Source: a virus
DNA length: 30,664 nucleotides
Strand: one strand, 5' to 3'
Virus record (IMG/VR): IMGVR_UViG_3300035698_016990
Coordinates: 1 to 30,664 of that record
The notes under the pieces are model-generated. The model was not told the origin of the DNA. It did no database searches and saw only the letters and a program-made list of their open reading frames with translations. The stretch's first letter is position 1, and every line of letters begins with the position of its first letter. The position numbers and the translations under genes were made by a program. Below are positions 9,135 through 29,855 of this stretch, piece by piece.

Positions 9135-9143
9135 TATATTTGA
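9135..9143 (+). promoter_or_regulatory. TATATTTGA intergenic nonamer, site 1
   Basis: TATATTTGA lies in the gap between divergent genes, 11 bases before the ATG at 9155. The flanks are GG before and AAG after, the same as at 29343. It is one of seven copies seen only between genes. Function unproven; candidate promoter or operator. Confidence 0.45.
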
Positions 9144-9154
9144 AAGGCAAAATC

Positions 9155-9772
9155 ATGTATGAAGCAATCAAGTTTAAGATCAAGGGAGTTATGCCAACCA
9201 TTATGCACAATGGTCAGACAAGTGATCCATTGAATCATTATGCAAAAGAAATGAAAAAGATAACAAGTAAAAGGGTTAAGAAAGACAGTGACCATATGGA
9301 AATTGCCAAAATTGAATGGTATGCAGCTCTATATGTTGACGAACAAAATCGCCCATGTTGGCCTGGAGAGAATATTGAATCAATGCTTGTGGCGGCGGCC
9401 AAGAAAACCCGCATGGGACCTTCAGCCAAATCTGGCATGTTTGTCGACGGCAATGCAGTCGTAGTACATGACGGCCCCCGCACCGCAGATGGGATTTGGA
9501 AATTCAAACAATTTGAAAAGAATCCATTTATTTCTAGAGTACCAGTTGTCATTAATAAATCAAGGGTGATGAGAACCAGGCCGATATTTCAAAATTGGTC
9601 CCTGGAATTTGTTGTTCATTTCATGTCAGACATTATTAATAAAGAAGATATCATAGATTTTGTTACAAAAGCTGGTAGGATGATAGGTTTAAGCGATTGG
9701 CGTCCGAAATACGGTCGTTTTGAGATGGAATCTTTTGAAGAAATAGAATCTACTAGTAAAAGCAATGCATAA
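9155..9772 (+). CDS. Conserved-looking phage protein, function unknown
   Basis: 205 residues from the ATG at 9155, preceded by GAAAGG; a TTG five codons upstream is less likely. It has the pattern 'FKIKGVMPTIMHNGQTSDPLN', 'WYAALYVDEQNRPCWPGENIESMLVAAAKK', 'MFVDGNAVVVHDGPRT' and the closing 'GLSDWRPKYGRFEMESFEEI'. This looks like a compact alpha/beta phage protein whose C-terminal 'DWRP.YGRF' signature is highly ordered, but I cannot name the family. It starts a plus-strand run (9155-12000) leading to the helicase, which hints at DNA metabolism. Confidence 0.65.
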   Translation: MYEAIKFKIKGVMPTIMHNGQTSDPLNHYAKEMKKITSKRVKKDSDHMEIAKIEWYAALYVDEQNRPCWPGENIESMLVAAAKKTRMGPSAKSGMFVDGNAVVVHDGPRTADGIWKFKQFEKNPFISRVPVVINKSRVMRTRPIFQNWSLEFVVHFMSDIINKEDIIDFVTKAGRMIGLSDWRPKYGRFEMESFEEIESTSKSNA

Positions 9773-9800
9773 TATCGAAGTGCAATGAATGGAGAGCCTA

Positions 9801-10004
9801 ATGCCTGATGATGATGGTCGTAAGAGATTTATGCCAAAACGCGGGCCGCTTGGTGGTCAAAGTAGAGATTATTGTCTCCCAACCATACCATGTAGAGTAG
9901 CTAATTGTCCGTGTAATGCAAATGAAAAATGCGAAATGCCATCTGCAATCAAGATCAATGCGGCTGGCAAATGTGAGCAATCATCAAAATTAAAGGACAA
10001 ATAA
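9801..10004 (+). CDS. Small Cys-rich protein, DUF1540-like
   Basis: 67 residues from the ATG at 9801, which has GGAGAG at proper spacing; an ATG four codons upstream lacks this. The C-terminal half shows 'IPCRVANCPCN', 'EKCEMPSAIKI' and 'AGKC', that is C-x3-NC-x-C-N-x4-C then A-I-x-I then C, resembling the small Cys-rich DUF1540 pattern, probably metal-binding. The N-terminal part is charged. Its TAA touches the next ATG directly. Molecular role unknown. Confidence 0.6.
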   Translation: MPDDDGRKRFMPKRGPLGGQSRDYCLPTIPCRVANCPCNANEKCEMPSAIKINAAGKCEQSSKLKDK

Positions 10005-10487
10005 ATGAGTCCAAACAGACCACTAAAGATACCAATGAATTTAGCCAAATGCGAATATGGAATGATAATACAAAACTCTCTCATTGAAAAATTGTATGAC
10101 ATAGAGGAAGATGATCCCAATTTTTCTCTAGCAAGAATGAAATTCAAACAAAGACTCGAATTTCTTCTTGAAAAAGACTTTGAGATGCCATGTACTATAT
10201 GTGTCAGAGATGGATTATTAAAAATATTGACACACGAAGAAGCATCCGAATATCACAAACACAGATTTAATCTTTGCATATTAAAAATGATGCAATCATT
10301 CCATAAAAACAGACAAGTTACTACAGAAGACTTTGAAAAGATAATGGTCAAAGAACACCATAGAACTTTAGAAGTACAAAGTAAAGTGCTGCAATCGGTT
10401 GTGAAAGTTCATCCAGACATCAAATTGGCGGCCCACAAAAGAAAGACCCCATTACCATTATTCAATGAAAACCATAATAGTCGATAA
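10005..10487 (+). CDS. Hypothetical protein upstream of helicase
   Basis: 160 residues beginning immediately after the previous stop. Mostly helical and charged, with 'ARMKFKQRLEFLLEKDFEMPCTICVRDG', a stretch with C-x2-C, then 'HRFNLCILKMMQSFHKNRQVTTEDFEKIMVKEH' and a basic tail. No family recognised. It overlaps the helicase start by 23 bases, so the two are almost certainly cotranscribed, and it might be a helicase partner (inference only). Confidence 0.62.
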   Translation: MSPNRPLKIPMNLAKCEYGMIIQNSLIEKLYDIEEDDPNFSLARMKFKQRLEFLLEKDFEMPCTICVRDGLLKILTHEEASEYHKHRFNLCILKMMQSFHKNRQVTTEDFEKIMVKEHHRTLEVQSKVLQSVVKVHPDIKLAAHKRKTPLPLFNENHNSR

Positions 10488-12000
10488 CAGATGGATTTAC
10501 TTAGATAACGTAACTCCTGACGTAGACAATCTATTATATAACCACTTCGCCGCAGAAGACCCAAGAGCGAGGTACATAGACTCTGTTGAAGAACAGAGTT
10601 GGGATGGTGTTTATAGAAAATATCGGAAGAAAGATCAGAAATTATCTAGGGGTTTTCTTCAAGAATTAACAGAATTTTGTGGCAAACACGACATACCGCT
10701 CGAAATAGAAGATAAACGACCCCCCTCAAAATACCCAATGTTCAGCAAAAAAGATATCAATCCAGATATTTTATCTGGCATAACATTGGGTGTTCACCAA
10801 ATAGAGGGGCTCGAGGCCTGCATAAATAATGAAACAGGTATAATGTTCTATATTACCGGGGCCGGTAAGACTGAATTGATGTGCGGCATCTCTAAGCTTC
10901 TGAATTGTCCTACTATTATTATAGCAGAAGAGAGGGTGGTTGTAGATCAGATTAGAAGTCGTCTTAAATTGAGAGACGTGACGGACGATGTTGGTGTTTT
11001 TTATGCTGGACAGTCACCAGATGGCCAATTGGTGTGTGTTGGCAGTTTGGCCAGCCTAATGTTACCACCGAAGATTAAGCGTAAGAAAGACGAAAGCCAA
11101 GAAAAATATGGAATGCGACTCAAAGCCCACAAAACCAGAACGAAACATCATAAAATCTATAGAAAACTTCTGGAAAAATGCGAGTTGCTGATGATTGACG
11201 AGTGCGATAAAGCAGCCACCAATAAACAATATAGGAAGATAATACAGAAATATACAAATTCAAGATATGTATATGGTTTTACTGGTACTCTGCCAATGGA
11301 TGAAGACAAATTAGATCAACTCAATTTAACAGAGTTACTTGGTAGCGTAATAGCCGAATCAGATAGAAGACATCTAGAAAAAATCGGAAGAATTATACCA
11401 GTAAAATATGTAATGACAGTATTTGGAGAGAACAATAGGGACGATAGATCCGCTTTCGATATTGCTGTTAGAGAATTAATTGAAGAGAATGAAGATCTAC
11501 ATGATAAAGTAAACCAAATAATATCTGGTTTTCCAGATGATAATTTTTTGATATTGGTAGAAAATTTAGAACTTGGAAGGGAATTGAAGAAAAAAATTCC
11601 AGGCAGTGAGTTTATTTATGGCACAACCTCTAAGAAAGCAAGAGACAAGGCTCTTAAAGAGTTTGAAGACAAAAAGCTAAAAGTGCTAATTGGAAGCAGG
11701 ATTCTGAAGAGGGGTTTGGATCTAAAAGGCGGAGTAGATAATTTGATATTGGTCGCCAGCAGCAAAAAGGATCAAGAAATAGAACAGAAAGTCGGCAGGG
11801 CACTCAGAATAAATGAAAGAGGGTGGGCGCGAGTTTTTGACTTTATGTTTATTAATAATTATTATCTATATAAACATTCAAGAAGAAGATTAAAGAGGAT
11901 GATCCAACTTGGATATCCCACCATTGTTGTTGCGCCAAAGAAAACTCTAGACGGGAAAGATGTAATAAAGAGGGGATTTAATTTATTTCGTTATGTCTAA
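10465..12000 (+). CDS. uvsW: SF2 DNA/RNA helicase, UvsW-like
   Basis: 511 residues with superfamily 2 motifs in order: Walker A TGAGKT at 131-136 (preceded by FYI rather than the usual AP), DECD box at 245-248, motif III 'GFTGTLP' at 271-277, motif V 'KRGLDLKGG' at 415-423 and motif VI 'EQKVGRALR' at 440-448. The 100-residue N-terminal region and overall length fit T4 UvsW, which unwinds branched recombination and replication intermediates and helps switch from origin- to recombination-dependent replication. Residues 200-235 form a very basic insertion between motifs Ia and II. It begins inside the previous gene and ends overlapping an opposite-strand gene by 18 bases. The name is by similarity of architecture; another SF2 phage helicase is possible. 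Confidence 0.85.
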   Translation: MKTIIVDNRWIYLDNVTPDVDNLLYNHFAAEDPRARYIDSVEEQSWDGVYRKYRKKDQKLSRGFLQELTEFCGKHDIPLEIEDKRPPSKYPMFSKKDINPDILSGITLGVHQIEGLEACINNETGIMFYITGAGKTELMCGISKLLNCPTIIIAEERVVVDQIRSRLKLRDVTDDVGVFYAGQSPDGQLVCVGSLASLMLPPKIKRKKDESQEKYGMRLKAHKTRTKHHKIYRKLLEKCELLMIDECDKAATNKQYRKIIQKYTNSRYVYGFTGTLPMDEDKLDQLNLTELLGSVIAESDRRHLEKIGRIIPVKYVMTVFGENNRDDRSAFDIAVRELIEENEDLHDKVNQIISGFPDDNFLILVENLELGRELKKKIPGSEFIYGTTSKKARDKALKEFEDKKLKVLIGSRILKRGLDLKGGVDNLILVASSKKDQEIEQKVGRALRINERGWARVFDFMFINNYYLYKHSRRRLKRMIQLGYPTIVVAPKKTLDGKDVIKRGFNLFRYV

Positions 12001-12312
12001 TTTAGAAATGATTGTTTCTACGAATTCATGCAAATTACTCAAAAATTCTTCATCGAACAAACTCACAGTAAACTCGCGCCTCGGCCCATAAACAACTAAA
12101 TCGGTATCCACAACGCCAATAGTAAAAATATAAGATTCATCACCAAACACGTGAATATCTATCCACTCCCCTATAGATTCCCCGTTTTTTCCTCTATATC
12201 TATTACTAGAATCAACCCTACATGATATTGATGGCCATGATTCAAGATCATATTTATCCTTAATTATGTCCTGAATAGATGCCAACAACGGATTGGTAGA
12301 TCTTTTAAACAA
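11983..12312 (-). CDS. Hypothetical protein with TTG start
   Basis: 109 residues. There is no ATG in the frame; the TTG at 12312 has GGAGGGTGG a few bases upstream, which decides the start. The sequence looks like one beta-rich domain ('EWIDIHVFGDESYIFTIGVVDTDLVVYGPRREFTVSLF') with a C-terminal helix. No family recognised. Its 3' end overlaps the helicase gene by 18 bases in convergent orientation. It probably forms a short minus-strand operon with 12388-12540. Confidence 0.55.
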   Translation of the reverse strand: MFKRSTNPLLASIQDIIKDKYDLESWPSISCRVDSSNRYRGKNGESIGEWIDIHVFGDESYIFTIGVVDTDLVVYGPRREFTVSLFDEEFLSNLHEFVETIISKLDITK

Positions 12313-12387
12313 CTAAGCCACCCTCCACTCGGATCTCTGGGACAACAACTGGTGTTTGGCAAAGTCTTTTCGAGAGAGTTGGCTGCC

Positions 12388-12540
12388 CTATAGTCCGTAC
12401 CGGACCGCCATCCGCATGAAGACAACCGACTCTTTAATATCAACGAGGCACCGACCACCCACAAAAGTCTTCTTCATCCGATACGAGGCCTGGAGCATAT
12501 TGCGCTCGATCAACGTCATCTTTTCGTCCAAATCATGCAT
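12388..12540 (-). CDS. Small hypothetical protein (50 aa)
   Basis: A 50-codon frame starts at the ATG at 12540 with GAGAGG eight bases upstream and ends TAG. The product starts MHDLDEKMTLIERNML and is basic and Met/Arg-rich. Base composition is clearly richer in G+C than surrounding genes, which could mean recent acquisition. Support is the ribosome site, orientation and the otherwise empty gap; no homologue is known to me. Confidence 0.45.
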   Translation of the reverse strand: MHDLDEKMTLIERNMLQASYRMKKTFVGGRCLVDIKESVVFMRMAVRYGL

Positions 12541-12602
12541 AATCAAACCTCTCTACCTGGGAATTATTTTTCCTTAAGACTTCTCTATATAAATCTATAT
12601 CA

Positions 12603-12611
12603 TCAAATATA
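12603..12611 (-). promoter_or_regulatory. TATATTTGA intergenic nonamer, site 2
   Basis: The minus strand reads TATATTTGA here, pointing toward the minus-strand start at 12540. It lies in the divergent gap between 12540 and 12642, next to TATAAATC at about 12588-12595. Candidate control site; not proven. Confidence 0.4.
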
Positions 12612-12641
12612 ATCATGTATTTTATTATCGGAGGATTAATA

Positions 12642-13331
12642 ATGGCTTTACCATCTAATTATTACTTCGATAACGATGCTGTCGAGGCAATTCTTGTTAG
12701 ATATCATAAAACCGGATGTACTTGTATCTCTATCCGCAACGAAGTAATGAAAAATGCAGATGAGTTGATTATCAACGTAATCAGAACGCACAATTTACAC
12801 AACATTTATGCTGGAAAAGACGAATCTGCATTTAATGATTTATATCAAATAGCATGGTGTGCTATTGAAAGTGCGCTCTATAAATTTAACAACGATCCAG
12901 GACACCCAAAAATCTTTAATATGTGGTCACAAATTGCTAGAACAGCGATATTGGCAGCAATTAAAAAAGACAACAGAGATAAGAAAAACTCTGAAGGATA
13001 TAGATATTATCTAGACGAGAGAGCAATAAAAAGATCAGCCAAATTTGACAGATTTATAAAAGAAGCCAAAGACGTATGTAAATATTGTGACGATTTTATG
13101 AAAATAATATGTGCTTTAGAAAACCTATATCTTCATGACCCAAAACCCCACGAAGGACTTATAGGAAAATTAACAAAGTTTTCCGGAATGTCTAGAGCTA
13201 AAATTATAAAATTCATCAAGATACTTCGATTGATGAGTTTTGAGTTTACAGACTCCCCAATCGGCGAAATAGAACACCAAGAGCAACCAGTCAAGCCTAG
13301 TTCAATAGCATTCACAAAAGAAGAGGATTAG
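12642..13331 (+). CDS. 55: T4 gp55-like late sigma factor
   Basis: 229 residues from the ATG at 12642 with CGGAGG upstream; a longer frame starting at 12615 is less likely. Residues 62-115 give a sigma region 2 pattern: 'FNDLYQIAWCAIESALYKFN' (like the core-binding 'DL.Qeg..gl..A...fd' helix) followed by 'MWSQIARTAILAAIKKDNRDKK'. There is no region 4 helix-turn-helix, as in T4 gp55, which recruits host RNA polymerase core to TATAAATA late promoters together with sliding-clamp accessory proteins. The remaining C-terminal half is helical with a polar tail. The position next to terminase and portal genes fits late-gene control. Sigma-type identity is fairly sure; the gp55 role is inferred. Confidence 0.8.
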   Translation: MALPSNYYFDNDAVEAILVRYHKTGCTCISIRNEVMKNADELIINVIRTHNLHNIYAGKDESAFNDLYQIAWCAIESALYKFNNDPGHPKIFNMWSQIARTAILAAIKKDNRDKKNSEGYRYYLDERAIKRSAKFDRFIKEAKDVCKYCDDFMKIICALENLYLHDPKPHEGLIGKLTKFSGMSRAKIIKFIKILRLMSFEFTDSPIGEIEHQEQPVKPSSIAFTKEED

Positions 13332-13365
13332 GGAAAATATATTTATAGAATATTTGGGGATATAT

Positions 13366-16803: not shown

Positions 16804-16880
16804 ATTATTGTATTATTTATAATCTGTAAATCCATAAGCATCGCAAAAATAAGGTATGTATTTAACCATTCGGAGCAATT

Positions 16881-18746
16881 ATGAGCATCCAGCTATTTGA
16901 TAGAATAAGGGCGTTCCTAAAGAGCGCTGGCGTTTATACACACGAAAACCTCCTGCAAAACCAGGGGGATATCAATAGAGCCATCCAAAATGGTGAATTT
17001 ATAAATTATTCCTCTGCTGGATTGCTGGATCAGACCAATCTCCAAATAAACAGAATGGAGAGATATAAAGATTACGACCAAATGGATGAGATGGGTGAAA
17101 TTTCACTCGCTCTCGATTTATATGCCGATGAATCAACCCAAATAGATCCAGAAACCAAACACACCATTGCCATCAAAGCCAAAAACAATGAGCTGAAAGA
17201 AGAACTTGAAAGACTGTTCTTTGACATCCTAAATATAGACAATAAACTAAGAGCAGTGGTAAGATATTTGTGCAAGTATGGAGATTTTGCCGCAGAAATT
17301 ATCACAGACGAAAACCGAACCGAAGTGGCCTCTTTCAGACCATTCAACATTTATAGTTTTCTTAGAGTAGAAACAAAATTTGGGGATTTGGTTGGATTTT
17401 TCTTCTCTGATGAGATGATGGCCGAACCAATATTTCTACATCCATGGCAGGTAATGCACCTCAGATTGACATCTTATGAAAACATTTATGCCCCATATGG
17501 AAGAAGTATTCTAGATGGTGCAAGAAAAGATTTCAGAAGACTCAGACTGATGGAAGATGCTGCCCTTATTTACAGAATCACAAGAGCACCAGAAAAACGC
17601 ATATTCACTATCCCAGTTGGTAATATACCAACCAATCAAGTCGGTCAATACCTTAACCAAATAGCAGACCAATTTAAGAAACAGAGATTTTATGATCCAG
17701 CTACTGGCGATGTCAATTGGAGATATGCCCCGTTAATCCAGGAAGATGATTTTTGGATGCCACAACGCCCAGATGGCACTGGCCCATCGGTCGACACCAT
17801 GAAGGGTGCTGAAAATCTAGATCAGATCGCAGACATTGAATATTTTAAGAAAAAGATGATTGCCCCTCTAAAAATTCCGTTCTCCAGAGTTGGTATTGGT
17901 GATGACGCAGGCGGCAATGCAGACAAATCTCTCGCCTCTAGCCACACAGATTTTGCTAAGGCCGTCCAGTTTGTACAACAAGAAATCTGCATAGGGCTTA
18001 AGAAAATAGCTTTAGTACACTTAGCCATGAAGGGATTCGATTCTAAAGACATGTCAGAGTTTAATGTCATTATGACTGCTTCTTCTGCTATAGATGAGTT
18101 ATATAGAATAGAAACATGGAATTCAAGAGCTGGAGTCATAGCCACTCTCAGAGAAACCAATCTTTTCCCAGATGAGTGGATCCTATCCAGATTTACTGAT
18201 ATGACCGAAGATGAGGTAGAAAAATTAAAAGAACAAAAAGATAAAGAGAGTCCCGCTGCAAAAGAGGGTGATGATCTTGCTGGTCTGGGTGTGGGTGGTG
18301 GGGAAGAAATGGGTGGTGCCGAAGCTCTTGGACTACCTGGGTTGGAATCTCTTGATAGGGACCAGGCAAAAGTTCTTAATGAGTATAATAAATCAAATGA
18401 AAATCGAGATGATCGTATTGCGAAAAGTAAAGCCAAGAAATATATTGACGTGTTCAATTACTTGTTGAACAATAATGAATTCGACGGATTGCCATTATCT
18501 AAAAATCAAAAAGATAAAGTTATTCAAGATGATAAAGAATCTGATCCGTTTGTTCTAGTAGAAAGCACCGATAAAGATGAAGACAAAGAAGATCTTTATA
18601 TAATTAATCCACTTCTAGAAGAAGACAAGGAAGCACAGGAAGCTCTTAAAGCAAATAAAGAAATTTTGTCAAACATTGTCGACAAAGAAGACGTTGCAGA
18701 AATGCAATACCCAATATTGAAGATTTCAGATGGTATGGATCAATGA
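16881..18746 (+). CDS. 20: Portal vertex protein (gp20-like)
   Basis: 621 residues, with GGAG before the ATG. It has the T4 gp20 signature 'RMERYKDYDQMDEMGEISLALDLYADES' near residues 58-85, then 'YGRSILDGARKDFRRLRLMEDAALIYRITRAPEKRIF' and 'VGNIP', and later 'FKKKMIAPLKIPFSRVG'. It forms the dodecameric ring at one capsid vertex through which DNA passes. Residues after about 455 are an acidic, charged tail with a Gly-rich patch (LAGLGVGGGEEMGG) and look less conserved. A 77-base gap separates it from the terminase, with TTTATAA-type AT-rich DNA that may hold a late promoter. In T4 the tail sheath and tube genes lie between 17 and 20; here they do not. Confidence 0.95.
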   Translation: MSIQLFDRIRAFLKSAGVYTHENLLQNQGDINRAIQNGEFINYSSAGLLDQTNLQINRMERYKDYDQMDEMGEISLALDLYADESTQIDPETKHTIAIKAKNNELKEELERLFFDILNIDNKLRAVVRYLCKYGDFAAEIITDENRTEVASFRPFNIYSFLRVETKFGDLVGFFFSDEMMAEPIFLHPWQVMHLRLTSYENIYAPYGRSILDGARKDFRRLRLMEDAALIYRITRAPEKRIFTIPVGNIPTNQVGQYLNQIADQFKKQRFYDPATGDVNWRYAPLIQEDDFWMPQRPDGTGPSVDTMKGAENLDQIADIEYFKKKMIAPLKIPFSRVGIGDDAGGNADKSLASSHTDFAKAVQFVQQEICIGLKKIALVHLAMKGFDSKDMSEFNVIMTASSAIDELYRIETWNSRAGVIATLRETNLFPDEWILSRFTDMTEDEVEKLKEQKDKESPAAKEGDDLAGLGVGGGEEMGGAEALGLPGLESLDRDQAKVLNEYNKSNENRDDRIAKSKAKKYIDVFNYLLNNNEFDGLPLSKNQKDKVIQDDKESDPFVLVESTDKDEDKEDLYIINPLLEEDKEAQEALKANKEILSNIVDKEDVAEMQYPILKISDGMDQ

Positions 18747-19237: not shown

Positions 19238-20593
19238 ATGGCCAGAAACAAAGACAAGGACATGACGGCATCAATTCCACATCATTTGGTTGATGAGGGC
19301 TACGACACGCCAGATGCGCCGCCGTTTGGTAGAGATGAAGAGGAAATTCTTGTCAAGAAAATGAAGGCAGTACGCAAAAAGGTTCTTAATTTGCTACCAT
19401 ATTCAACTGGTCAGAAGATTGTTATTAAAGTTGATAACAATGAAGTTAAAGCAACTATCAAAGCGATTATAATTAGATCGCGGAAAAACAATTTTTACGA
19501 ATGTCTCTACAAGTACAAAGACAGAAAAGAAAAAGACAAAGAAAAAACCGTTAAGCGCTACGCCTCAGAGATCATAACAAAAACCAGAAAAAAGGCACGC
19601 AGCGAAGCACAGTGTGCTAAAATCTTTGCAGAATACGAAAATGAACGTCACAGCTTCTCTGTAAGATATGCTTTTGTGGCTCACAAAATTGCTGCCGCCC
19701 TTTGTAATCAGTGTCATCGCGGAATGGGATATGGTGACCTGAATCAGTCTGGTTTTTTGGGTATTTCTAATACAGTCGACAGGTGGCCTCCTTTTCTTGG
19801 CGCCAAAGATAAGGGTGCACGCATCTTAACCTCGATGCGCGTGGCTGTTCATAATTCGATCTGCAGGTCTCTTGATGATTTCAATAGAAACATTAGGATT
19901 CCATCATATAAGATTGAGCAGATAGGTGTTCGCTTGAAACTCGACGATATCCTCTACGGCAAAAAGAAAAAGATTGGGAAAAAGGAAGAGGAAGAAGACG
20001 ATAAGAGAAAAGATGAGGATAAGATATTTTGCAAGAATAAAAAGTGCCTCATTGCCCAATGTGCTGCTTGTAAAAATAAACACGGCAGCAACTGTCGTCG
20101 CAAGAATCCTGAGGCATTCGAGCTAGATGTTCAAAAGATGATTGATGACCTAAACCTAGAGCCGTGCGATGTTGATGGGAAGTCTATCAAAATCATAGCA
20201 GTCGAAACTGGTAATTATCGAGAAGTAGCCAAAGCTGTTAACCTGGATGTTAGTTCATTTATTTCGATCGTTGAACCAGTAGCTTCCATCCATGTGCCAC
20301 TAAATGAAGATAATGAAGATTCAATAGCTGACCTGATGCCACATGAGGAGTATGATAGTGGCCATCAGTCATTCGTGCGGGAAGCCTTGGAGGAAGCAAT
20401 CGATCAAATCGGTGGAAGAGATGCCTCATTCATTCGCGATCATCACTTTGGTAATCTTAGCATTAGAGAATTGGCCGAAAAACATAACATTTCTGCAATG
20501 AGAGCTTCTGAGTTGATTAACAAAGCAGTCATCAAGCTGCGCACCAATGAAGCAGCTAACAATATTCTAAAGAACAAGATTGTTGGTCGATAA
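19238..20593 (+). CDS. Sigma70-family factor with Cys-rich insertion
   Basis: 451 residues from the ATG at 19238 (AAGGAG upstream). Residues 1-135 are a lysine-rich extension with a beta section ('TGQKIVIKVDNNEVKATIKAIIIRSRK'). Residues about 140-230 resemble sigma regions 2-3: 'RYAFVAHKIAAAL', 'MGYGDLNQSGFLGISNTVDRW', 'ILTSMRVAVHNSICRSLDDFNRNIRIPSYKIE'. Residues 376-436 resemble region 4 with a helix-turn-helix ('LEEAIDQIGGRDASFIRDHHF', 'SIRELAEKHNISAMRASELINKAVIKLR'). Between them sits an insertion with five Cys (265, 270, 275, 278, 286), perhaps zinc-binding, and a poly-Lys/Glu stretch. It would redirect RNA polymerase to phage promoters. It has its own promoter and terminator and is more G+C-rich than its neighbours, suggesting separate origin. 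The gene is monocistronic. Confidence 0.75.
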   Translation: MARNKDKDMTASIPHHLVDEGYDTPDAPPFGRDEEEILVKKMKAVRKKVLNLLPYSTGQKIVIKVDNNEVKATIKAIIIRSRKNNFYECLYKYKDRKEKDKEKTVKRYASEIITKTRKKARSEAQCAKIFAEYENERHSFSVRYAFVAHKIAAALCNQCHRGMGYGDLNQSGFLGISNTVDRWPPFLGAKDKGARILTSMRVAVHNSICRSLDDFNRNIRIPSYKIEQIGVRLKLDDILYGKKKKIGKKEEEEDDKRKDEDKIFCKNKKCLIAQCAACKNKHGSNCRRKNPEAFELDVQKMIDDLNLEPCDVDGKSIKIIAVETGNYREVAKAVNLDVSSFISIVEPVASIHVPLNEDNEDSIADLMPHEEYDSGHQSFVREALEEAIDQIGGRDASFIRDHHFGNLSIRELAEKHNISAMRASELINKAVIKLRTNEAANNILKNKIVGR

Positions 20594-21761: not shown

Positions 21762-21775
21762 TCAAAGATATAAAT

Positions 21776-22342
21776 ATGGATAATAGATTCCAATTCCCCG
21801 TGTCAGCAGAAATCGATTTTATTAATGATGTTGGCACAACGGGCCAAGCTCACGATTCATATGCAGAACCTGGCACTCTTCCAAGATATGACTGGATGAG
21901 AATGGTTGTTCTTGGAATACTTGCAAGCCAAGCGTCTAGAGATGAACCACAACAATATAGACCAGGAACTTTATATTATGATTTAAACACATTCTTTTAT
22001 AAATGTATGAAGGACGACAATTTCGAAGATATCGCCAAGTGCATAAAAACCATAAACAAGAGCCTCTATGACTGGGCACAAGAAATAGAAGAAAAAAGAA
22101 AAAGATTTCAATTAACTGGAGTATTCTCTGGCACTACCTACGACACCAACAATGTTATTAATATCCCAGAGAACCTACAGCCAATATCAATATCCCCCAA
22201 TAGACCATACATGTTTAAAAACGGTGGTATTGTGGACCCATCTTTGGTACAATTCAATACCGGGTGTCCAGTTGCCATTGAATTGTCTGGGAGCGCAGTC
22301 TTAGCTGTAGACGATCAATTCACTGTTTTTATCAAACAATGA
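21776..22342 (+). CDS. Hypothetical, possible virion protein
   Basis: 188 residues. No Shine-Dalgarno is seen; TATAAATA overlaps the ATG. The N-terminal 110 residues are helical ('YDWMRMVVLGILASQASRDEP', 'IAKCIKTINKSLYDWAQEIEEKRKRFQ') and the C-terminal 75 residues are beta-rich ('GVFSGTTYDTNNVINIPENLQPISISPN', 'GCPVAIELSGSAVLAVDDQFTVFI'). This helical-then-beta shape suits a small structural protein, but that is inference. Its TGA overlaps the next ATG by 4 bases. Confidence 0.6.
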   Translation: MDNRFQFPVSAEIDFINDVGTTGQAHDSYAEPGTLPRYDWMRMVVLGILASQASRDEPQQYRPGTLYYDLNTFFYKCMKDDNFEDIAKCIKTINKSLYDWAQEIEEKRKRFQLTGVFSGTTYDTNNVINIPENLQPISISPNRPYMFKNGGIVDPSLVQFNTGCPVAIELSGSAVLAVDDQFTVFIKQ

Positions 22343-23270: not shown

Positions 23271-23546
23271 TTATGTAAATATATTCAAAAAGTCAGGTTT
23301 TTCTTTGTAAAGCTTTGCCAATTTCTTAGCTTTTTCTGGATCCTTAACAATATTAGCAAACATCGATTGGGCTTGAGGATCCATCTTTCTAAACATGTCA
23401 ATTGGAATGATTTTGTTTATTATCGATAAAAAAGCACGAGAAACGAGACCTTCATCGATCGTGAATGGAGACACAATTTCGTCTCCTTCTTCTAACAAAT
23501 ATGTTTCACCATCGAGAATTATTTTAGTATTGTGAGTTACCTTCAT
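23271..23546 (-). CDS. Small protein with N-terminal YLLEEGD module (A)
   Basis: 91 residues from the ATG at 23546, five bases after GGAG; an ATG one codon upstream is possible. Residues 1-25 share the pattern 'TKIILDGETYLLEEGDEI' with the products of 28470-28676 and 29012-29320. The remainder is helical ('MDPQAQSMFANIVKDPEKAKKLAKLY'). The three share the N-terminal module but differ after it, so the module may be a targeting or binding unit. Overlaps the upstream gene by 23 bases. Function unknown. Confidence 0.65.
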   Translation of the reverse strand: MKVTHNTKIILDGETYLLEEGDEIVSPFTIDEGLVSRAFLSIINKIIPIDMFRKMDPQAQSMFANIVKDPEKAKKLAKLYKEKPDFLNIFT

Positions 23547-23958
23547 CATCGCTCCTGCTCTTATTCTCGCCAGTATTAAATTGTTTGCCGCATGGTTTTA
23601 ACATACCATAAAGCTGACTATTTAATCCTTTTGGAGAAGCATCAATACCGCCAGCAAGATTGGCACCCATACCCACACCCTTGCCACCACTGTCGCTACA
23701 ACAACCAGGTTTAGCTGAACCAGAAATAGCAACCGCAGTAAATGATTCGCCATTACCCTTATCGATAGATACCCTAGAAATATCAAGACCCTCTTCGCCA
23801 GCTGGTTCGGCCTCTCCATATTCTGGAGCGGATGAATTACCTGCAGCTATGAGTGGGGGATTATTGCTCAATACAGGACCAAACAGAGTGTGCTGTTTAC
23901 TACCAACAATCATATTTTGAGCAATATTTTGAATATCCCTGATTTCAATTTCTTTCAT
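23524..23958 (-). CDS. Hypothetical Gly/Ser-rich protein
   Basis: 144 residues, AAAGGGAGG upstream of the ATG at 23958. After a short helix ('MKEIEIRDIQNIAQNMIV') the chain is low complexity, rich in Gly, Ser, Ala and Asn ('GKGVGMGANLAGGIDASPKG'), with a 'PGCCSDSGG' segment. Probably extended or flexible, possibly a virion component. Not recognised. Middle gene of the minus-strand cluster 23271-24398. Confidence 0.55.
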   Translation of the reverse strand: MKEIEIRDIQNIAQNMIVGSKQHTLFGPVLSNNPPLIAAGNSSAPEYGEAEPAGEEGLDISRVSIDKGNGESFTAVAISGSAKPGCCSDSGGKGVGMGANLAGGIDASPKGLNSQLYGMLKPCGKQFNTGENKSRSDDEGNSQY

Positions 23959-23972: not shown

Positions 23973-24398
23973 TTAAGATATTTTTGATCGGGCTTCTTTT
24001 AATTCCTTAATAACCCATGCATATTTCTCAAGGAAGTCAGAAATTGCGTCAGAGTATGTTGCAATTTTATTAAACCATTTATGATCGCGTATGTGCTTTT
24101 TTATGATTCCTAGCTCTATATTGGTAAGGGCATCGTCTGACTCACATTTATGAATCATTGTGCACAAAGCCAAATCGGATATGTCTGGTAATGGTTCTGT
24201 GACATCTTTATCACACTCTTTACAAAGAGCACACATTGCTTCTCTCATTATCCAAGCATATTTATTTATAAAATCCATAGTCGCTTCGTCGTCACTAGAT
24301 ATGTGATTACATTGTTTGTGCTCGCTAAGATGGTTTTTTATGAGATCTATCTCAACCGCTATAACTTGAGATGCGTATTTGCATTTTTCACATCTCAT
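23973..24398 (-). CDS. Protein with an internal duplication and Cys clusters
   Basis: 141 residues from the ATG at 24398, which has GGGGAG seven bases upstream; an ATG at 24413 lacks that. Residues about 15-53 ('EIDLIKNHLSEHK...MDFINKYAWIMRE') and about 95-133 ('ELGIIKKHIRDHK...SDFLEKYAWVIKE') are a clear internal repeat. CxxC at 3-6, a Cys cluster at 56, 59 and 62, and C79/C85 with nearby His suggest metal binding. First gene of a minus-strand operon, divergent from the zinc-ribbon/tmRNA unit. Function unknown. Confidence 0.62.
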   Translation of the reverse strand: MRCEKCKYASQVIAVEIDLIKNHLSEHKQCNHISSDDEATMDFINKYAWIMREAMCALCKECDKDVTEPLPDISDLALCTMIHKCESDDALTNIELGIIKKHIRDHKWFNKIATYSDAISDFLEKYAWVIKELKEARSKIS

Positions 24399-24415
24399 GC
24401 CGAATCTCCCCATGT

Positions 24416-24424
24416 TATATTTGA
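24416..24424 (+). promoter_or_regulatory. TATATTTGA intergenic nonamer, site 3
   Basis: TATATTTGA in the 61-base divergent gap between 24398 and 24460, upstream of the zinc-ribbon/tmRNA unit. A TATAAATG at 24448-24455 follows, four bases before the ATG. Candidate control region for both directions. Confidence 0.45.
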
Positions 24425-24459: not shown

Positions 24460-24645
24460 ATGACAAATCTTACATTGAGGTGTATTGTATGTAAAACAGA
24501 AGAAAAAATAGACTTTGCGACACTAGGATTATACCAAGTAATGCAGGATATAATAAAAGAAAAAGGGTGGGAGTTGATCAAAACTACCGGTACTGAAGGT
24601 TATTGTTGCAAAAAATGTGGGCTAGATCAGGTATCGACTGGATAA
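24460..24645 (+). CDS. Small zinc-ribbon protein overlapping tmRNA
   Basis: 61 residues with two CxxC pairs ('RCIVCKTEE' and 'YCCKKCGLD'), a minimal zinc ribbon. No Shine-Dalgarno; TATAAATG lies just before the ATG, so the mRNA may be leaderless. The last 27 bases of the frame (24619-24645) are also the 5' end of the tmRNA, including the whole acceptor strand, so processing of the tmRNA must cut this message. A shortened relative of this frame follows the tmRNA at 25023. Confidence 0.6.
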   Translation: MTNLTLRCIVCKTEEKIDFATLGLYQVMQDIIKEKGWELIKTTGTEGYCCKKCGLDQVSTG

Positions 24646-24971
24646 GGAGGGATACAGCGGCGTGCCGAGGTTGATCGGTTGGCCTCGTAAAAAGCCGATC
24701 AAAACAACAACTGCCGACTTCGGTCAGCTCCGTCAAGCTGCCTAAACAGCTCGACCCAGAAAGCGATAAGGTAGCAGCGTAATCGTTAGTACGGCCACTA
24801 CTCTGCTAAGGCAAGATTTGGAATTGTCAGGGCATATCTTGCCAAGATTACTCTGACAGACAAGCCCGGAAAGACGGGCAAACGGTTGTTGATGACCGAA
24901 ATATCAACTACGCACGTAGAGACTGTTTTCTAATTTATCGCAGGACCGGAGTTCGATTCTCCGCTGGTCCA
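24619..24971 (+). ncRNA. ssrA: Transfer-messenger RNA (tmRNA)
   Basis: The tRNA-like part folds fully: acceptor strands GGGCTAG (24619-24625) and CTGGTCC (24964-24970) pair over 7 bp with a G3-U pair, the alanine identity signal, and A73 follows; CCA is not encoded. The T arm is CGGAG-TTCGATT-CTCCG (24947-24963). The tmRNA D-region 'GGTATCGACTGG' and the conserved 'GCCGAGG...GGCCTCGTAAAAAGCCG' are present. PK1 pairs CGAGG/CCTCG and GATCGG/CCGATC (24666-24700). Further pseudoknots are GGCAAGAT/ATCTTGCC with TGTCAG/CTGACA (24810-24858), and CGGT/ACCG with GTTGAT/ATCAAC (24883-24908). It rescues stalled ribosomes with SmpB and tags the product; no smpB is in the window, so host SmpB is expected. 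About 353 bases, normal size. Confidence 0.96.
24713..24745 (+). other. tmRNA tag reading frame (ADFGQLRQAA)
   Basis: Twelve bases after PK1 a resume codon GCC opens the frame GCC GAC TTC GGT CAG CTC, then CGT CAA GCT GCC TAA, giving ADFGQLRQAA. The Ala-Ala end is what ClpXP-type proteases need; the usual penultimate Leu-Ala-Ala is Gln-Ala-Ala here. The other two frames have no suitable short stop. Confidence 0.85.
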
Positions 24972-24979
24972 AACACTAA

Positions 24980-25017
24980 CGCCTCCACTTCCACCCAAAT
25001 ATAAGGAAGTGGAGGCG
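24980..25017 (+). other. 13-bp inverted repeat after tmRNA
   Basis: A perfect stem CGCCTCCACTTCC/GGAAGTGGAGGCG (24980-24992 and 25005-25017) with a 12-base loop starts nine bases after the tmRNA end. There is no T run. The right arm contains GGAGG, seven bases before the ATG at 25023, so the stem would hide that ribosome site; it may also protect or help trim the tmRNA 3' end. Confidence 0.75.
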
Positions 25018-25022: not shown

Positions 25023-25094
25023 ATGAAAATAAAGAGTAAATGTATTGAGTGTAATGATAAATTTGAAACAGGCTTGCTGATATTGGGTACCTAA
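25023..25094 (+). pseudogene. Truncated zinc-ribbon remnant
   Basis: A 23-codon frame beginning MKIKSKCIECNDKFETG resembles the start of the 24460 product (LRCIVCKTEEKIDF) in protein and in DNA (TGTATTG then GTGTAA). It stops at 25092-25094 with only one CxxC, so a complete zinc ribbon cannot form. Best read as the decayed first gene of a duplicated zinc-ribbon/tmRNA unit, though a genuine mini-protein cannot be excluded. Confidence 0.45.
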
Positions 25095-25130: not shown

Positions 25131-25151
25131 CGATTCCCCGCTGGTCCACCA
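25131..25151 (+). repeat. Partial copy of tmRNA 3' end, with CCA
   Basis: CGATTCCCCGCTGGTCCA at 25131-25148 matches 24954-24971 of the tmRNA in 17 of 18 bases (T-loop end, T-stem strand, acceptor strand), and is followed by CCA, which the full tmRNA lacks. The sequence to its left shows no T-stem partner or tRNA body, so it is a fragment. Confidence 0.85.
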
Positions 25152-25191: not shown

Positions 25192-25203
25192 ATTGGAGAT
25201 ATG

Positions 25204-26617: not shown

Positions 26618-26797
26618 TCATTTATGGATATTTTTACCGGCGTACTTTTTTCTCAATGGACCCTTCATGATAGAAGCATCATCATACGATTTTGGTACAA
26701 AATTCCAAACATTAGTTGCGCCTTTGTGCCCGCCCGGTCCAGCAGAAACGGTATCTGATCCAGCAGAAACATCTGTCTTTTTCTTCTTGGGTACCAT
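26618..26797 (-). CDS. Small basic protein (59 aa)
   Basis: A 59-codon minus-strand frame from the ATG at 26797, with CCGGAGG at good spacing. The product begins MVPKKKKTDVSAG and ends with a basic 'LRKKYAGKNIHK'; the middle 'GGHKGATNVWNFVPKSYDD' is Gly/Asn-rich. Its TGA directly abuts the TAA of the convergent radical-SAM gene. Strong ribosome site and fit into the gap support it. Not recognised. Confidence 0.6.
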   Translation of the reverse strand: MVPKKKKTDVSAGSDTVSAGPGGHKGATNVWNFVPKSYDDASIMKGPLRKKYAGKNIHK

Positions 26798-26813
26798 AAT
26801 ATTTCCTCCGGGA

Positions 26814-26822
26814 TATATTTGA
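26814..26822 (+). promoter_or_regulatory. TATATTTGA intergenic nonamer, site 4
   Basis: TATATTTGA in the 41-base divergent gap between 26797 and 26839, 16 bases before the protease ATG and directly before its AAGGAA ribosome site. Same element as the other intergenic sites. Confidence 0.42.
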
Positions 26823-26838
26823 TAAGGAAACTCAGCAA

Positions 26839-27570
26839 ATGAAAAGATTAATCATATCTTTATTACTTCTGTTCCTATTCGGCTGCGAACAAATTGATCA
26901 TGTGTTGGTACCAGGAATACCATCTGAAAAACCCCAAAAATCCCAAGAGGAATTTAAAGTAGAAAAAGTAGAACCAATAGGAGAATTGGTTAAAGAAAGA
27001 TCCGGCATAGTACATGTAAAATTTGATGGTGGTATGTCATATTCTATTGGAACTGGATTCTTTGTGGTATATAAAAATAATAAATATTTATTGACCGCAG
27101 GCCACAATGTGATCGGTGCCGGTAGGGTGTTTGTGTTCCGCGATAGTGGATCAATTGAAGTGAATATATTAAAACATAAGATATCTAGAGAAGATGACTT
27201 GGCAGCATTTATAGTGGAAACAAAAGAAAACTGTTTCGAATTAGAAGACCCAAAAATATTTGATGGTATACCAGATTTTGGCAAATTATATAAACCAAAT
27301 AACTACAAAGTAGTAAAAGTTAACATGTTTGGATATCCAGCAGAATGGAATTTCAGAAAAATAAGTGGAGAAATCTATCAAACAATTTTTGACGGTAAAT
27401 ATTTGGTTTGCACCGGAAAATGCGATAGTGGAATGTCTGGCGGGCCTTGGTTTAATAAAGAAACTGGGAAGGTGGTTGCTGTACATTCGACACAAATTTC
27501 TGGAAAATCAGGTGGTATATCAGTTAAAGCCATCATAAGCCTTCTTGATAAAATGGAGAATGGCAAATGA
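26839..27570 (+). CDS. Lipoprotein trypsin-like serine protease
   Basis: 243 residues with TAAGGAA before the ATG. Residues 1-15 are a signal peptide (MKRLIISLLLLFLFG) and Cys16 a lipobox cysteine (LFGC, slightly atypical), so it should be membrane-anchored outside the cytoplasmic membrane. The chymotrypsin-fold triad is visible: His89 in 'LLTAGHN', Asp120 in 'SREDDLAAF' and Ser200 in 'CDSGMSGGPWF'. Residues about 28-50 are a charged linker. Substrate unknown; an exported protease from a phage could process envelope proteins or act in lysis or superinfection control (inference). It overlaps the next gene by ATGA. Confidence 0.85.
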   Translation: MKRLIISLLLLFLFGCEQIDHVLVPGIPSEKPQKSQEEFKVEKVEPIGELVKERSGIVHVKFDGGMSYSIGTGFFVVYKNNKYLLTAGHNVIGAGRVFVFRDSGSIEVNILKHKISREDDLAAFIVETKENCFELEDPKIFDGIPDFGKLYKPNNYKVVKVNMFGYPAEWNFRKISGEIYQTIFDGKYLVCTGKCDSGMSGGPWFNKETGKVVAVHSTQISGKSGGISVKAIISLLDKMENGK

Positions 27571-28067
27571 AAAACATGATAGCGTTGATAATATTTATAG
27601 CACTGCCAACCTTTGTTATGGCTACCACCGCAAATAAGGTTGCAGAAAAAGAACCAGTTGTTAAAGAAGTTAAAGAAGCAGACATATTAATGGAAGTAAA
27701 ACCGCAAATGGAAACATTGGCTGAGAAACAAAAACGCATAGATAAGATAATTGCCCACATGTTGGAAGAAGGCCCACCAGAACCAATTGCTAGAGGTTTA
27801 CATGTGAAATTCGGGAAAGCCGCTGAGTGGGTCATAAATAACGCTAACAAACCAAATGGCTGGAGCCTTACAGGATATGCCAAACTAAAAATTAGCAAAA
27901 GAAATATTAGTCGTTGGAAGTTCGGGATCATTAATGGTGAATTGGATTGGTCCCTATATCAAGAATTAGAAAATAGCAAGATGTATCACCACAGCCTTAT
28001 GAACGAATGGAACATGAGAAAAAGCAGAGAAGTAATTGTGGGGTTTTCTTTTAGTAAGGAGTGGTAA
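27567..28067 (+). CDS. Secreted hypothetical protein
   Basis: 166 residues with an N-terminal signal peptide (MKNMIALIIFIALPTFVMATT, likely cleaved after the Met-Ala region). The mature part opens with a charged helix (KVAEKEPVVKEVKEADI) and then 'MLEEGPPEPIARGLHVKFGKAAEWVINNANKP'. Coupled to the lipoprotein protease upstream (ATGA) and the next gene (TAATG), so the three exported proteins probably act together. No family recognised; a lysis role is possible but unsupported by motif. Confidence 0.62.
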   Translation: MKNMIALIIFIALPTFVMATTANKVAEKEPVVKEVKEADILMEVKPQMETLAEKQKRIDKIIAHMLEEGPPEPIARGLHVKFGKAAEWVINNANKPNGWSLTGYAKLKISKRNISRWKFGIINGELDWSLYQELENSKMYHHSLMNEWNMRKSREVIVGFSFSKEW

Positions 28068-28483
28068 TGGTAGATAAATTAGATATGGGAATTTTATTAT
28101 GTATTGTTACCGTGATATTTATTGCTATGTCTGCCAATTATCTATCAAAACGCACAGAAATATCTCCAGAAGTCCAAGAAGTATTCCAGAAGATTCCAGA
28201 GGTATCTGAAGACCCCCAGACCCCACAGAATTTAAAGGAAGCCAAAGAAGACCCCAAGGAGACCCCACAAACAAATCTTGGGCGCCCTCTGAAATTCAGA
28301 AAATTCATAGTAGTCGTGGAGATATATTCAAAAGAACCCAAAGACGACAACTGTGTTCGAGAAGAGACAAAAAAGCTAATGGATCTAGCCAAATCAGTAG
28401 CTGATGTAAATGATGTTAAAATAATTAAATTACAGGGCGTGTCGGTAAGCAGAAATCAGACATTCGATATTAGTCTAGATTAA
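28067..28483 (+). CDS. Membrane-anchored hypothetical protein
   Basis: 138 residues from the ATG at 28067 (AAGGAGTGG upstream, TAATG overlap). One transmembrane segment spans about residues 6-25 (LDMGILLCIVTVIFIAMSAN), then a Pro/Glu/Lys-rich linker (about 38-72) and a C-terminal alpha/beta domain ('FRKFIVVVEIYSKEP', 'DVNDVKIIKLQGVSVSRNQTFDISL'). The arrangement resembles a spanin-like or tethering protein but no proof exists. Its end overlaps the convergent minus-strand gene by 14 bases. Confidence 0.6.
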   Translation: MVDKLDMGILLCIVTVIFIAMSANYLSKRTEISPEVQEVFQKIPEVSEDPQTPQNLKEAKEDPKETPQTNLGRPLKFRKFIVVVEIYSKEPKDDNCVREETKKLMDLAKSVADVNDVKIIKLQGVSVSRNQTFDISLD

Positions 28484-28676
28484 CCCCAATACCACTTAAG
28501 AATGTTGCTATTTCAGATGCCTTTTCGGTATCGCCTGCCTCTACGGATCTTTTATAAAGTGCTTTCAGTTGTTCTACGTGGTTGTTGCCTTCTAACTTTA
28601 TTTTGTCACCCTCTTCTAACAATATGCGCTTGCCATTTGCAACAATTTCTATGTCTTCTGATATAGTAAATTCCAT
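28470..28676 (-). CDS. Small protein with N-terminal LLEEGD module (B)
   Basis: 68 residues from the ATG at 28676, with GGAG six bases upstream; the longer frame to 28718 overlaps the upstream gene. Residues 1-28 read MEFTISEDIEIVANG then 'RILLEEGDKIKLE', matching the 23271 and 29012 products. The rest is one helix-rich stretch ('VEQLKALYKRSVEAGDTEKASEIATFL'). Last gene of the minus-strand cluster. Function unknown. Confidence 0.62.
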   Translation of the reverse strand: MEFTISEDIEIVANGKRILLEEGDKIKLEGNNHVEQLKALYKRSVEAGDTEKASEIATFLSGIGVNLD

Positions 28677-28677
28677 G

Positions 28678-29010
28678 TTAATCTCCGAACCAGTCCATCC
28701 CAATAGTAAAATTATCAAATTGTCTTTTAAATCTTATCAACTCAATTCTTGTTTTCATTAATTTCTCTCGAAAATTTATGCTTTCACAGGCATCATTAAA
28801 TGTTACTTCTATAAAATCCATCCAATCCCTAAAACTATCTAACTGTGAGGGCCAGAGACCAAGCTCTAGCATTTCATCTATGTCGCTTTGATAATCTTCT
28901 ATTTCATCTGCTGTTGTGCTGGAAAGCGCAGCGAGACTGTTGGTTTTCCAGTCTTGATATTTGCGCCATTTAATGCCAGGATTTTGTATACCAAGATCTT
29001 CCCAAGACAT
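28678..29010 (-). CDS. Hypothetical protein
   Basis: 110 residues between two module proteins. The sequence is acidic/aromatic and helical ('IKWRKYQDWKTNSLAALSS', 'LPSQ'-like turn, 'FRDWMDFIEVTFNDACESINFREKLMKTRIELIRFKRQ'). AAGGAGTC is present upstream but at long spacing. It ends one base before the next gene. Trp-rich pattern is unusual for its size. Not recognised. Confidence 0.58.
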   Translation of the reverse strand: MSWEDLGIQNPGIKWRKYQDWKTNSLAALSSTTADEIEDYQSDIDEMLELGLWPSQLDSFRDWMDFIEVTFNDACESINFREKLMKTRIELIRFKRQFDNFTIGMDWFGD

Positions 29011-29011
29011 T

Positions 29012-29320
29012 TTATTTTGTGACTCCTTTGCCTTTCCATTTCCCGCGTTTTGCCCTAATCGCGAATTGTAATTCGCGAATCATTTTAGTTGATTCTGGAT
29101 CGGCCTTCTTCCCTTGTTTTTCGAGGCTTTCTTGCTTTTTCTTGAGGTTGCTAACTTCACTCATCAATTGAGATATTGATTTTGACGCATGTTCGCCAGT
29201 ACTATTAATCTTAACATCACCCTTCCACTTTTCTAGGATGATAACATCACCCTTTTCTAATAAATACTTTTCACCGTTTAAAACGATTTCGGTACTTTCA
29301 GACACGGCGAACTTGTTCAT
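29012..29320 (-). CDS. Small protein with N-terminal YLLEKGD module (C)
   Basis: 102 residues from the ATG at 29320; GGAGGGG lies eight bases upstream inside the right arm of a strong hairpin. Residues 1-29 give 'STEIVLNGEKYLLEKGDVI', the same module as A (23271) and B (28470). After it comes a coiled-coil-like 'KSISQLMSEVSNLKKKQESLEKQGKK' and a basic tail (RAKRGKWKGKG). Shared module plus different tails suggests a common targeting or assembly tag. Function unknown. Confidence 0.65.
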   Translation of the reverse strand: MNKFAVSESTEIVLNGEKYLLEKGDVIILEKWKGDVKINSTGEHASKSISQLMSEVSNLKKKQESLEKQGKKADPESTKMIRELQFAIRAKRGKWKGKGVTK

Positions 29321-29322
29321 AA

Positions 29323-29366
29323 CATCCCCTCCATCTTTTCGGTATATTTGAAAGATGGAGGGGATG
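29323..29366 (-). promoter_or_regulatory. 16-bp hairpin covering a ribosome site
   Basis: Perfect inverted repeat of 16 bp: 29323-29338 and 29351-29366, 12-base loop. In the minus-strand mRNA the 3' arm contains the GGAGGGG ribosome site of the gene starting at 29320, so folding would block its translation. The loop holds the TATATTTGA nonamer on the other strand. Confidence 0.8.
29343..29351 (+). promoter_or_regulatory. TATATTTGA intergenic nonamer, site 5
   Basis: TATATTTGA with the same GG...AAG flanks as at 9135, here in the loop of the 29323-29366 hairpin. No plus-strand gene starts downstream, which argues that the element may be bound by a protein rather than be a promoter alone. Confidence 0.4.
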
Positions 29367-29371
29367 AACAT

Positions 29372-29719
29372 CTACGCCGACATTTCTAGCAATCTGTGGG
29401 CTTGAGTTATAGTAATGGTTTCCATTTGATTCGGCGGGTAATAAATATCTTTACTTCTTATGATGTGATAATGTTCTTTGAATATTTCTCTCGCTTCATA
29501 AATTATGATTTTAGATATATTATCTATCGGTATAATATCATCTGGATGAACCAGCATCGCAGATGATATTTTCCTACTTATTTCATAAACATCTTTAAAT
29601 AATAACCCCAACACTTTTGTTCCTTTTTTCCTTCCTACACCCAAAAATATTCCTTCGTATTTAAAATAATGCAACACAAATCTGATTCTCTTTCCAACTA
29701 ATTTGGACAGCCTATTCAT
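29372..29719 (-). CDS. Small protein, paralog of 21008-21352
   Basis: 115 residues with AAAGGAGGG upstream. It shares the layout of the 21008 product: basic start 'KLVGKRIRFVLHYFKYEGIFLGVG', 'S.AMLVHPDDIIP', 'REIFKEHYHIIRSKDIYYPP'. First gene of the minus-strand cluster 28470-29719, whose divergent partner starts at 29856. Function unknown; the beta-rich start suggests a binding domain. Confidence 0.65.
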   Translation of the reverse strand: MNRLSKLVGKRIRFVLHYFKYEGIFLGVGRKKGTKVLGLLFKDVYEISRKISSAMLVHPDDIIPIDNISKIIIYEAREIFKEHYHIIRSKDIYYPPNQMETITITQAHRLLEMSA

Positions 29720-29810
29720 GACATGTCCCTCCTTTGCGCGCTCCTATTTAAGTGTCAATTTCAAAATGTTAATTCACCTTTCTAATGTTTTTATAAACCT
29801 TATAGCAATT

Positions 29811-29850
29811 ATATTTGATAATATATACAATCTATTGTATTATCAAATAT
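29811..29850. promoter_or_regulatory. 40-bp AT-rich palindrome in divergent control region
   Basis: Perfect 13-bp arms ATATTTGATAATA/TATTATCAAATAT (29811-29823 and 29838-29850), with an inner pairing TACAAT/ATTGTA around CT. It lies in the gap between minus-strand start 29719 and plus-strand start 29856. Each arm carries the TATATTTGA nonamer (29810-29818 forward, 29844-29852 reverse), so this looks like a two-fold operator for a dimeric regulator controlling both directions. Confidence 0.7.
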
Positions 29851-29855
29851 ATCAT

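Follow-up and report, generated by a model that had tools for sequence, protein, structure and literature searches.

The late promoters of bacteriophage T4 depend on gp55 and are placed, in an excerpt of PMC1524935, at -13 to -6 with the sequence TATAAATA; excerpts of the same paper and of PMC2988020 give the late promoter of Aeromonas phage Aeh1 as CTAAATA, with a C at -12. For T4 gene e, a passage of PMC3014915 describes a hairpin that conceals the Shine-Dalgarno (SD) sequence when the transcript is long; transcription from a late start strips away the 5' strand of that hairpin. The subject here is a nonamer repeat in the virus record IMGVR_UViG_3300035698_016990, an AT-rich stretch of 30,664 bases analyzed over its whole length (the window), with a non-coding fraction of 13.8% and genes for a T4-like terminase and portal. 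The seven copies of the repeat are very probably late promoters, lying on the strand opposite to the one first proposed for them and likely read by a gp55-like sigma factor.

As TATATTTGA, the nonamer occurs exactly seven times in the window, at 9135+, 12603-, 24416+, 26814+, 29343+, 29810+ and 29843-; the first-pass annotation had listed the same seven, with the last at 29844. It had also claimed that the copies are confined to gaps and had suggested comparing intergenic with coding counts, and by our independent gene calls, from a purpose-written caller using SD sequences and codon usage, all seven are indeed non-coding, against 0.34 expected in the gaps under an order-2 Markov model of the gaps. 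Its chance estimate of about one copy per window agrees with 100 dinucleotide shuffles (mean 0.97, maximum 4). Its view that most copies aim at a gene start as written fits the other strand better. The reverse strand reads TCAAATATA, which ends 16-90 nucleotides (nt) upstream of a called start codon in six of the seven cases; the seventh (29843) ends 4 nt upstream of the ATG of an open reading frame (ORF), 29856-30089, that has no SD sequence. An SD sequence and ATG follow TCAAATATA at 12603, 24424, 26822 and 29351, and longer leaders follow at 9143 and 29818. Taken as TATATTTGA, the copies at 12603- and 29343+ face away from genes, and 9135+ leaves 11 nt to an ATG.

The strand is decided by relatives. 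A scan of viral contigs with the portal protein gave 80 of them (45-75% identity in the best segment), including contigs of 408, 395 and 320 kilobases (kb); single-protein scans of viral contigs with TerL and with the gp55-like sigma found no relatives. Four were retrieved nearly whole (G001, G002, G007 and G011). Since L119, L103, L151 and L094 are parts of these four, respectively, the motif training set overlaps the four genomes there. Across 663 regions upstream of genes in the window and the 80 relatives, the leading strand-specific 8-mer is CAAATATA (34 against 2.65 expected, with 1 in reverse), followed by CAAAAATA (30 against 2.79, with 2 in reverse). CAAATATA also ranks first upstream of genes in G007 alone (9 against 0.88 expected, 0 in reverse) and second in G002; in G011 and G001 it does not lead, with weaker signal or other words ahead. 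Within tandem gaps (n = 640) of the window and relatives, sites scoring at least 11 with the trained motif number 70 in the TCAAATATA sense and 6 in the antisense, compared with 18 and 24 in divergent gaps (n = 89) and 1 and 0 in convergent gaps (n = 43). The exact nonamer, whose count is independent of training, occurs in tandem gaps 18 times in the TCAAATATA sense, twice in the window, and never in the antisense. Some further words enriched upstream of genes, GTATCTGA and GTATTTGA in G002 and CTCGCAAC and ATTAACGG in G001, may be leader elements or promoters of the early or middle class.

Expectation maximization (EM) with the window excluded gave the clade consensus [G/T]CAAA[A/T]ATA, at 10.9 bits and present in 35% of 409 upstream regions. 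The upstream motif search by which the first-pass annotation had proposed to check the repeat does return a motif in the relatives, though not in the orientation of TATATTTG, which as a seed produced only a flat 4.2-bit motif. Among 124 de-duplicated sites no -35 element appears, no column exceeding 0.14 bits from -45 to -5 relative to the motif start, and pyrimidines are weakly favored 3-5 nt upstream of the motif. A purine stands 6 nt past the last A in 106 of the 124 sites, and 7 nt past it in 91. Judged by this initiating-purine signature, the box would end 6 nt before the start of transcription, the same spacing as in T4. As a control, 49 kb of T4 sequence put through this pipeline gives TATAAATA the first rank, with 10 copies against 0.86 expected. 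The best score of the position weight matrix (PWM) in the untrained window, 12.9, belongs to GCAAAAATA at 16843..16851 (+), 29 nt before the ATG of the T4-like portal gene (gp20, presumptively late; 16881..18746, +; Pfam Portal_T4, 3e-74), with a predicted transcription start site (TSS) near 16857. The L084 and L086 orthologs have matching sites before the portal gene, and the positions that drift are the degenerate positions of the consensus; orthologous promoters are kept in close relatives.

The sites stand before virion genes rather than genes of replication. In a family scan of four genomes, which took 43 of 46 motif-positive genes (omitting L189:7218, L199:8306 and L221:3577) and 45 of 46 length-matched controls without the motif (omitting L205:8669), the tail sheath gene follows a strong site in all four genomes (orthologous, 56-69% identity), and portal, tail tube and tail fiber genes also stand behind strong sites. 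The controls, which among long genes are shorter than their motif-positive partners, include ribonucleotide reductase, DNA polymerase, ligase and exonuclease, and also one tail tube. Counted by ortholog group, sites stand before 36 of 45 copies of the gene that comes just ahead of the gp23 capsid gene and before 45 of 68 copies of a large gene that follows the portal, compared with none of 40 for the UvsW-type helicase; the capsid gene, which takes second place in its operon, has a site in none of 36. By position, then, these sites look like late promoters, with the timing suggested by the genes that follow.

The first-pass annotation had offered one of two sigma factors as a possible reader of the repeat. 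The window does encode two, and reading by a phage sigma is probable, with the clade-wide distribution of one of them, a gp55-like protein (SigA here; 12642..13331, +), in its favor. Of all 80 relatives, 46 have an ortholog upstream of the portal; among the 43 whose sequence extends at least 8 kb to that side, the count is 38. Its predicted structure (predicted local distance difference test score, pLDDT, 79) has as its top match T4 gp55 in a promoter open complex (7d7c_F; Z 12.8, root-mean-square deviation 5.3, 123 residues). In an alignment of 26 gp55-like sigma sequences (A2, built from 12648), three members match the phrog_351 sigma family weakly; the copy in G011 matches that family at 3.4e-4. 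Most of the 26 have acidic tails, which in some sequences resemble the clamp-binding end of gp55; the phenylalanine (as in IDFDEE and IAFTKEED) is present in part of them only. A tblastn search against named phages gave no match, and PDB sequences searched with the sigma profile yielded chance matches only, those to RING fingers falling on a zinc-ribbon insert, and one other. By eye, 17 of the 26 have such an insert, zinc-ribbon-like and placed midway through the sigma domain, and the window copy is without it. The gene has its own exact TCAAATATA at 12603..12611 (+; PWM 11.8), 30 nt before its start at 12642 and with a predicted TSS near 12617. This site would give positive feedback of the sigma gene, an arrangement that is rare across the clade; L086 has a weaker site, TCAAATTTA, before its own copy. 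The protein is likely to work like gp55, to which its homology is structural only, and is most likely the reader of the promoter.

A subset of boxes lies at a fixed distance from a start codon. In G002, an ORF of at least 50 codons opens with an ATG at exactly +5 behind 34 of the 74 CAAANATA sites, against 1 of 30 in the backwards control; the corresponding count for TATAAATA in T4 is 0 of 19. Across 13 relatives (G001-G013), CAAANATA-N4-ATG occurs 91 times, against 8 in the backwards control (15 against 4 at N7 spacing), while three outgroup records give 4 against 6. One 395-kb phage alone has 36 such sites. In the 28 G002 genes of this class that we examined, a pyrimidine always precedes the ATG and no alternative start with an SD sequence occurs within 90 nt; the coding score is clear for 16 of the 28, and some candidates may not be genes. 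The motif-ATG arrangement is kept between orthologous pairs, and members of the class match portal, head-tail adaptor and nudix hydrolase. Two genes in the window are predicted to belong to it. One, at 29856..30089 (+, 77 amino acids), follows TCAAATATA at 29843..29851 (+), with its ATG at +5 and no SD sequence; it is 40% identical to L085:9660-9893, where the spacing is equal and the ATG likewise at +5. The other, at 21776..22342 (+, 188 amino acids), has its ATG at +5 of TCAAAGATA at 21762..21770 (+), and its orthologs in L084 (with TCAAATATA) and L085 (with TCAAAAATA) also have ATG at +5. Such fixed spacing points to leaderless late mRNAs, with transcription probably starting on the A of the ATG. 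Several of the predicted leaderless proteins (L188-L201, in G002) begin with a segment like LITEDPDVLxE, which could be head-targeting, with a prohead-protease cleavage site.

Two sites in the window sit in hairpin loops. At 29343..29351 (-), TCAAATATA occupies the loop of a 16-bp stem (29323..29366, -) whose 3' arm holds the SD sequence of gene 29012-29320. The whole hairpin folds at -38.3 kcal/mol (z -6.2), compared with -6.6 (z -0.3) for a transcript from about the predicted TSS, near 29337, which would drop the 5' arm. Similarly, CCAAATATA (24995-25003) lies in the loop of a 13-bp hairpin (24980..25017, +) that precedes a 23-codon ORF at 25023 and has the SD sequence in its 3' arm; this hairpin folds at -25.8 kcal/mol (z -7.5), and a transcript started in the loop is unstructured. 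The promoter in a hairpin does not hold as a clade-wide device: stems of at least 9 pairs flank 26 of 158 sites where shuffled sequences give 31.7, and so only the two window hairpins stand out. A separate count of 78 of 157 sites with at least six paired bases in the SD region has no control and is not used. Just upstream of the second hairpin is a transfer-messenger RNA (tmRNA) gene (24619-24971), whose end sequence (GATTC-CCGCTGGTCCA) is repeated near 25131-25148; the repeat flanks the hairpin and the 23-codon ORF, an arrangement that resembles an insertion beside the tmRNA gene.

Other explanations of the repeat have to be set against this evidence. The Bacteroidota -7 box has the consensus TAnnTTTG, which TATATTTG fits; some TerL relatives are Flavobacterium phages, and for several copies the strand is ambiguous, their gaps being divergent. 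A promoter in the TATATTTGA orientation, read by a host-like sigma, is nevertheless very improbable given the 6 tandem-gap sites of that orientation against 70, the absence of the exact word among them against 18, the flat motif from the TATATTTG seed, and the SD sequences on many window genes. The same strand counts bear on the alternative that the first-pass annotation had raised beside a promoter, namely an operator. Although the pair at 29810/29843 forms an inverted repeat, most sites are single, directional and at a fixed distance to a purine and often to an ATG, and a strand preference in tandem gaps is not expected of an operator. It is thus hardly likely that the repeats are operators or other protein-binding sites, whereas a phage promoter is well supported, in the reverse of the proposed orientation. 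Nor is the copy number distinctive in itself, as 27 nine-mers reach at least seven copies in the AT-rich window and one-mismatch copies of the nonamer show no excess (28 against 26.8 expected); the case therefore rests on the restriction to gaps and on the relatives. With both the gap excess and independent enrichment in relatives of 41-51% G+C, the chance of an AT-rich word simply accumulating in AT-rich gaps is next to negligible.

If the promoter is as we describe it, its reader might still be a host sigma or the second sigma factor of the window, a sigma-70-type protein at 19238..20593 (+) with clear regions 2 and 4 (PDB sequence matches to SigA/RpoD; Sigma70_r4, 4e-4), which has in its favor the purely structural homology of its competitor to gp55. 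We consider this unlikely. The motif and the gp55-like gene are clade-wide, whereas sigma-70-type relatives were found only in the closest relatives (L085/L086/L179 and L087/L088/L181), so the gp55-like sigma is more likely concerned; G007 has a clean motif and no phrog_351 sigma match, in a contig that may be incomplete, and there is no -35 element for region 4 to bind. Besides the lack of a clade-wide excess of hairpins noted above, several results count against late promoters read by a gp55-like sigma. The simple count in G002 is 16 sense and 16 antisense until divergent gaps are set apart, coding sequence also holds sites of PWM score at least 9, and at T4's own sites a purine at +6 is only weakly favored (9 of 13). 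Many sigma-70 domain-2 structures follow closely behind gp55 in the structural comparison (other sigmas at Z 11.9 and below, within 1-2 Z units), and a comparison of profiles with those of ten gp55 proteins does not reach significance (hhalign, 29 columns around an IKKE/IKKD stretch, E 0.078). The gp45 C-domain family had no match over the cut-off in 17 records, the bacterial clamp had none in 13 records, and a family-B polymerase (PolB) was not found in the relatives, so that replication coupling of the T4 kind is unsupported; a family-A polymerase is matched in 8 of 13 relatives, and the C-termini of these polymerases are uninformative.

We propose that each site is a lone -10-type box, at about -14 to -6, where host RNA polymerase carrying the gp55-like sigma would melt the DNA, with RNA beginning 5-6 nt past the last A. 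The products would be mRNAs of virion and other late genes. From most sites the transcript would have a short leader carrying an SD sequence; at the two window hairpins a start in the loop would remove the 5' arm that may otherwise mask the SD sequence in read-through transcripts, and at other sites a start on the A of the ATG would give a leaderless mRNA. Sequence evidence establishes the motif together with its strand, placement and conservation and the kinds of gene behind it; where transcription starts, which sigma is the reader, the timing, control by hairpins and translation without a leader are inferred. A wider proposal, to which we give slightly better than even odds, is that this whole uncultured T4-like clade transcribes its late genes from a new box, KCAAAWATA, by means of a gp55 that has diverged strongly, does so without the T4 clamp and polymerase, and has the box fused to the ATG for leaderless mRNAs at tens of sites.

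The remaining predicted sites of the window lie mostly on the minus strand. TCAAATATA at 9135..9143 (-) is 52 nt from the called start of gene 8669-9082 (predicted TSS near 9129), and at 24416..24424 (-) it is 17 nt from that of gene 23973-24398, followed by the SD sequence GGGGAG (predicted TSS near 24410). Within the end of this last gene, TCAAAAATA at 23979..23987 (-) is a candidate promoter 20 nt from the start of gene 23524-23958, and the L085 ortholog has TCAAATATA at the equivalent place. The copy at 26814..26822 (-), 16 nt from the start of gene 26618-26797 with SD sequence GGAGGA (predicted TSS near 26808), is likewise present as TCAAATATA in the L085 relative. At 29810..29818 (-), 90 nt from the start of gene 29372-29719, TCAAATATA forms an outward-facing pair with the copy at 29843, and a similar divergent pair occurs in L085. 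A weaker candidate, TCAAAGATA at 8103..8111 (+; PWM 10.6), lies 35 nt from the start at 8147.

Some features of the window and its relatives stand apart from the promoter. Three small minus-strand proteins, at 23271-23549, 28470-28718 and 29012-29320, have a common N-terminal stretch (I.I..NG..YLLEEGD.I) and look paralogous. A long imperfect inverted repeat (tagaggtccggctc ... gaaccggacctcta) lies between genes at 30238-30305, and the left end of the window (51-6733) is a block of probable sugar-transferase-like genes, judged from their sequences. In G002, L197:5517-8162 encodes an 882-amino-acid phage protein that matches the shoulder and repeat domains of Major Vault Protein (Pfam, 8e-25). 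The portal match in LR756508.1 (146003-149422) is in three pieces, possibly interrupted by inserts.

A late promoter together with a candidate late sigma for a large uncultured phage clade would make late genes predictable from sequence, and would add to the variety known among T4-type late promoters. Should the leaderless branch be confirmed, late genes would be recognized by a 5'-AUG independently of SD sequences, which could favor viral over host messages late in infection, and the clade would offer a natural system with many leaderless messages from one promoter type that could probe why leaderless translation persists. A literature search, which left subscription papers mostly uncovered and so is weak evidence of novelty, returned no report of the clade consensus or of gp55-read leaderless late genes, and a word search for CAAATATA in papers gave, among the matches listed, only papers unrelated by title.

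Compared with described systems, the box is closest to the T4 late promoter, sharing with it a single -10-type element without a -35 element, a last A 6 nt before the start, virion genes downstream, and portal, terminase and capsid genes of the T4 type. Unlike TATAAATA, the clade has C at -13 and A at -11 (both T in T4), A or T at -9 and a G/T preference at -14; also unlike T4, the relatives yielded neither a gp45 clamp nor PolB, and a leaderless subset is present. The clade box appears to work like a T4-type late promoter, and its departure from the TATAAATA consensus, even with the variation known at -13 allowed for, would set it outside the canonical members. As far as the excerpts describe it, the Aeh1 promoter is likewise a divergent T4-type late box with a C near its 5' end; in our clade the C lies one base farther from the start and is followed by AAAWATA rather than TAAATA. 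The passage on T4 gene e offers the parallel of an SD-masking hairpin with an internal late promoter, whose late start removes the 5' strand, whereas the two strong cases here, both in the window, precede genes of unassigned function and would be predicted to act alike. Among phages, lambda cI is expressed from PRM as a leaderless transcript; the start at the A of the ATG and the lack of an SD sequence are predicted here too, but at tens of sites in one genome and from one late promoter type. In kind, the promoter is likely related to the late promoter of T4 though divergent from it, with a probably diverged gp55 as its reader and with an unusual leaderless class.

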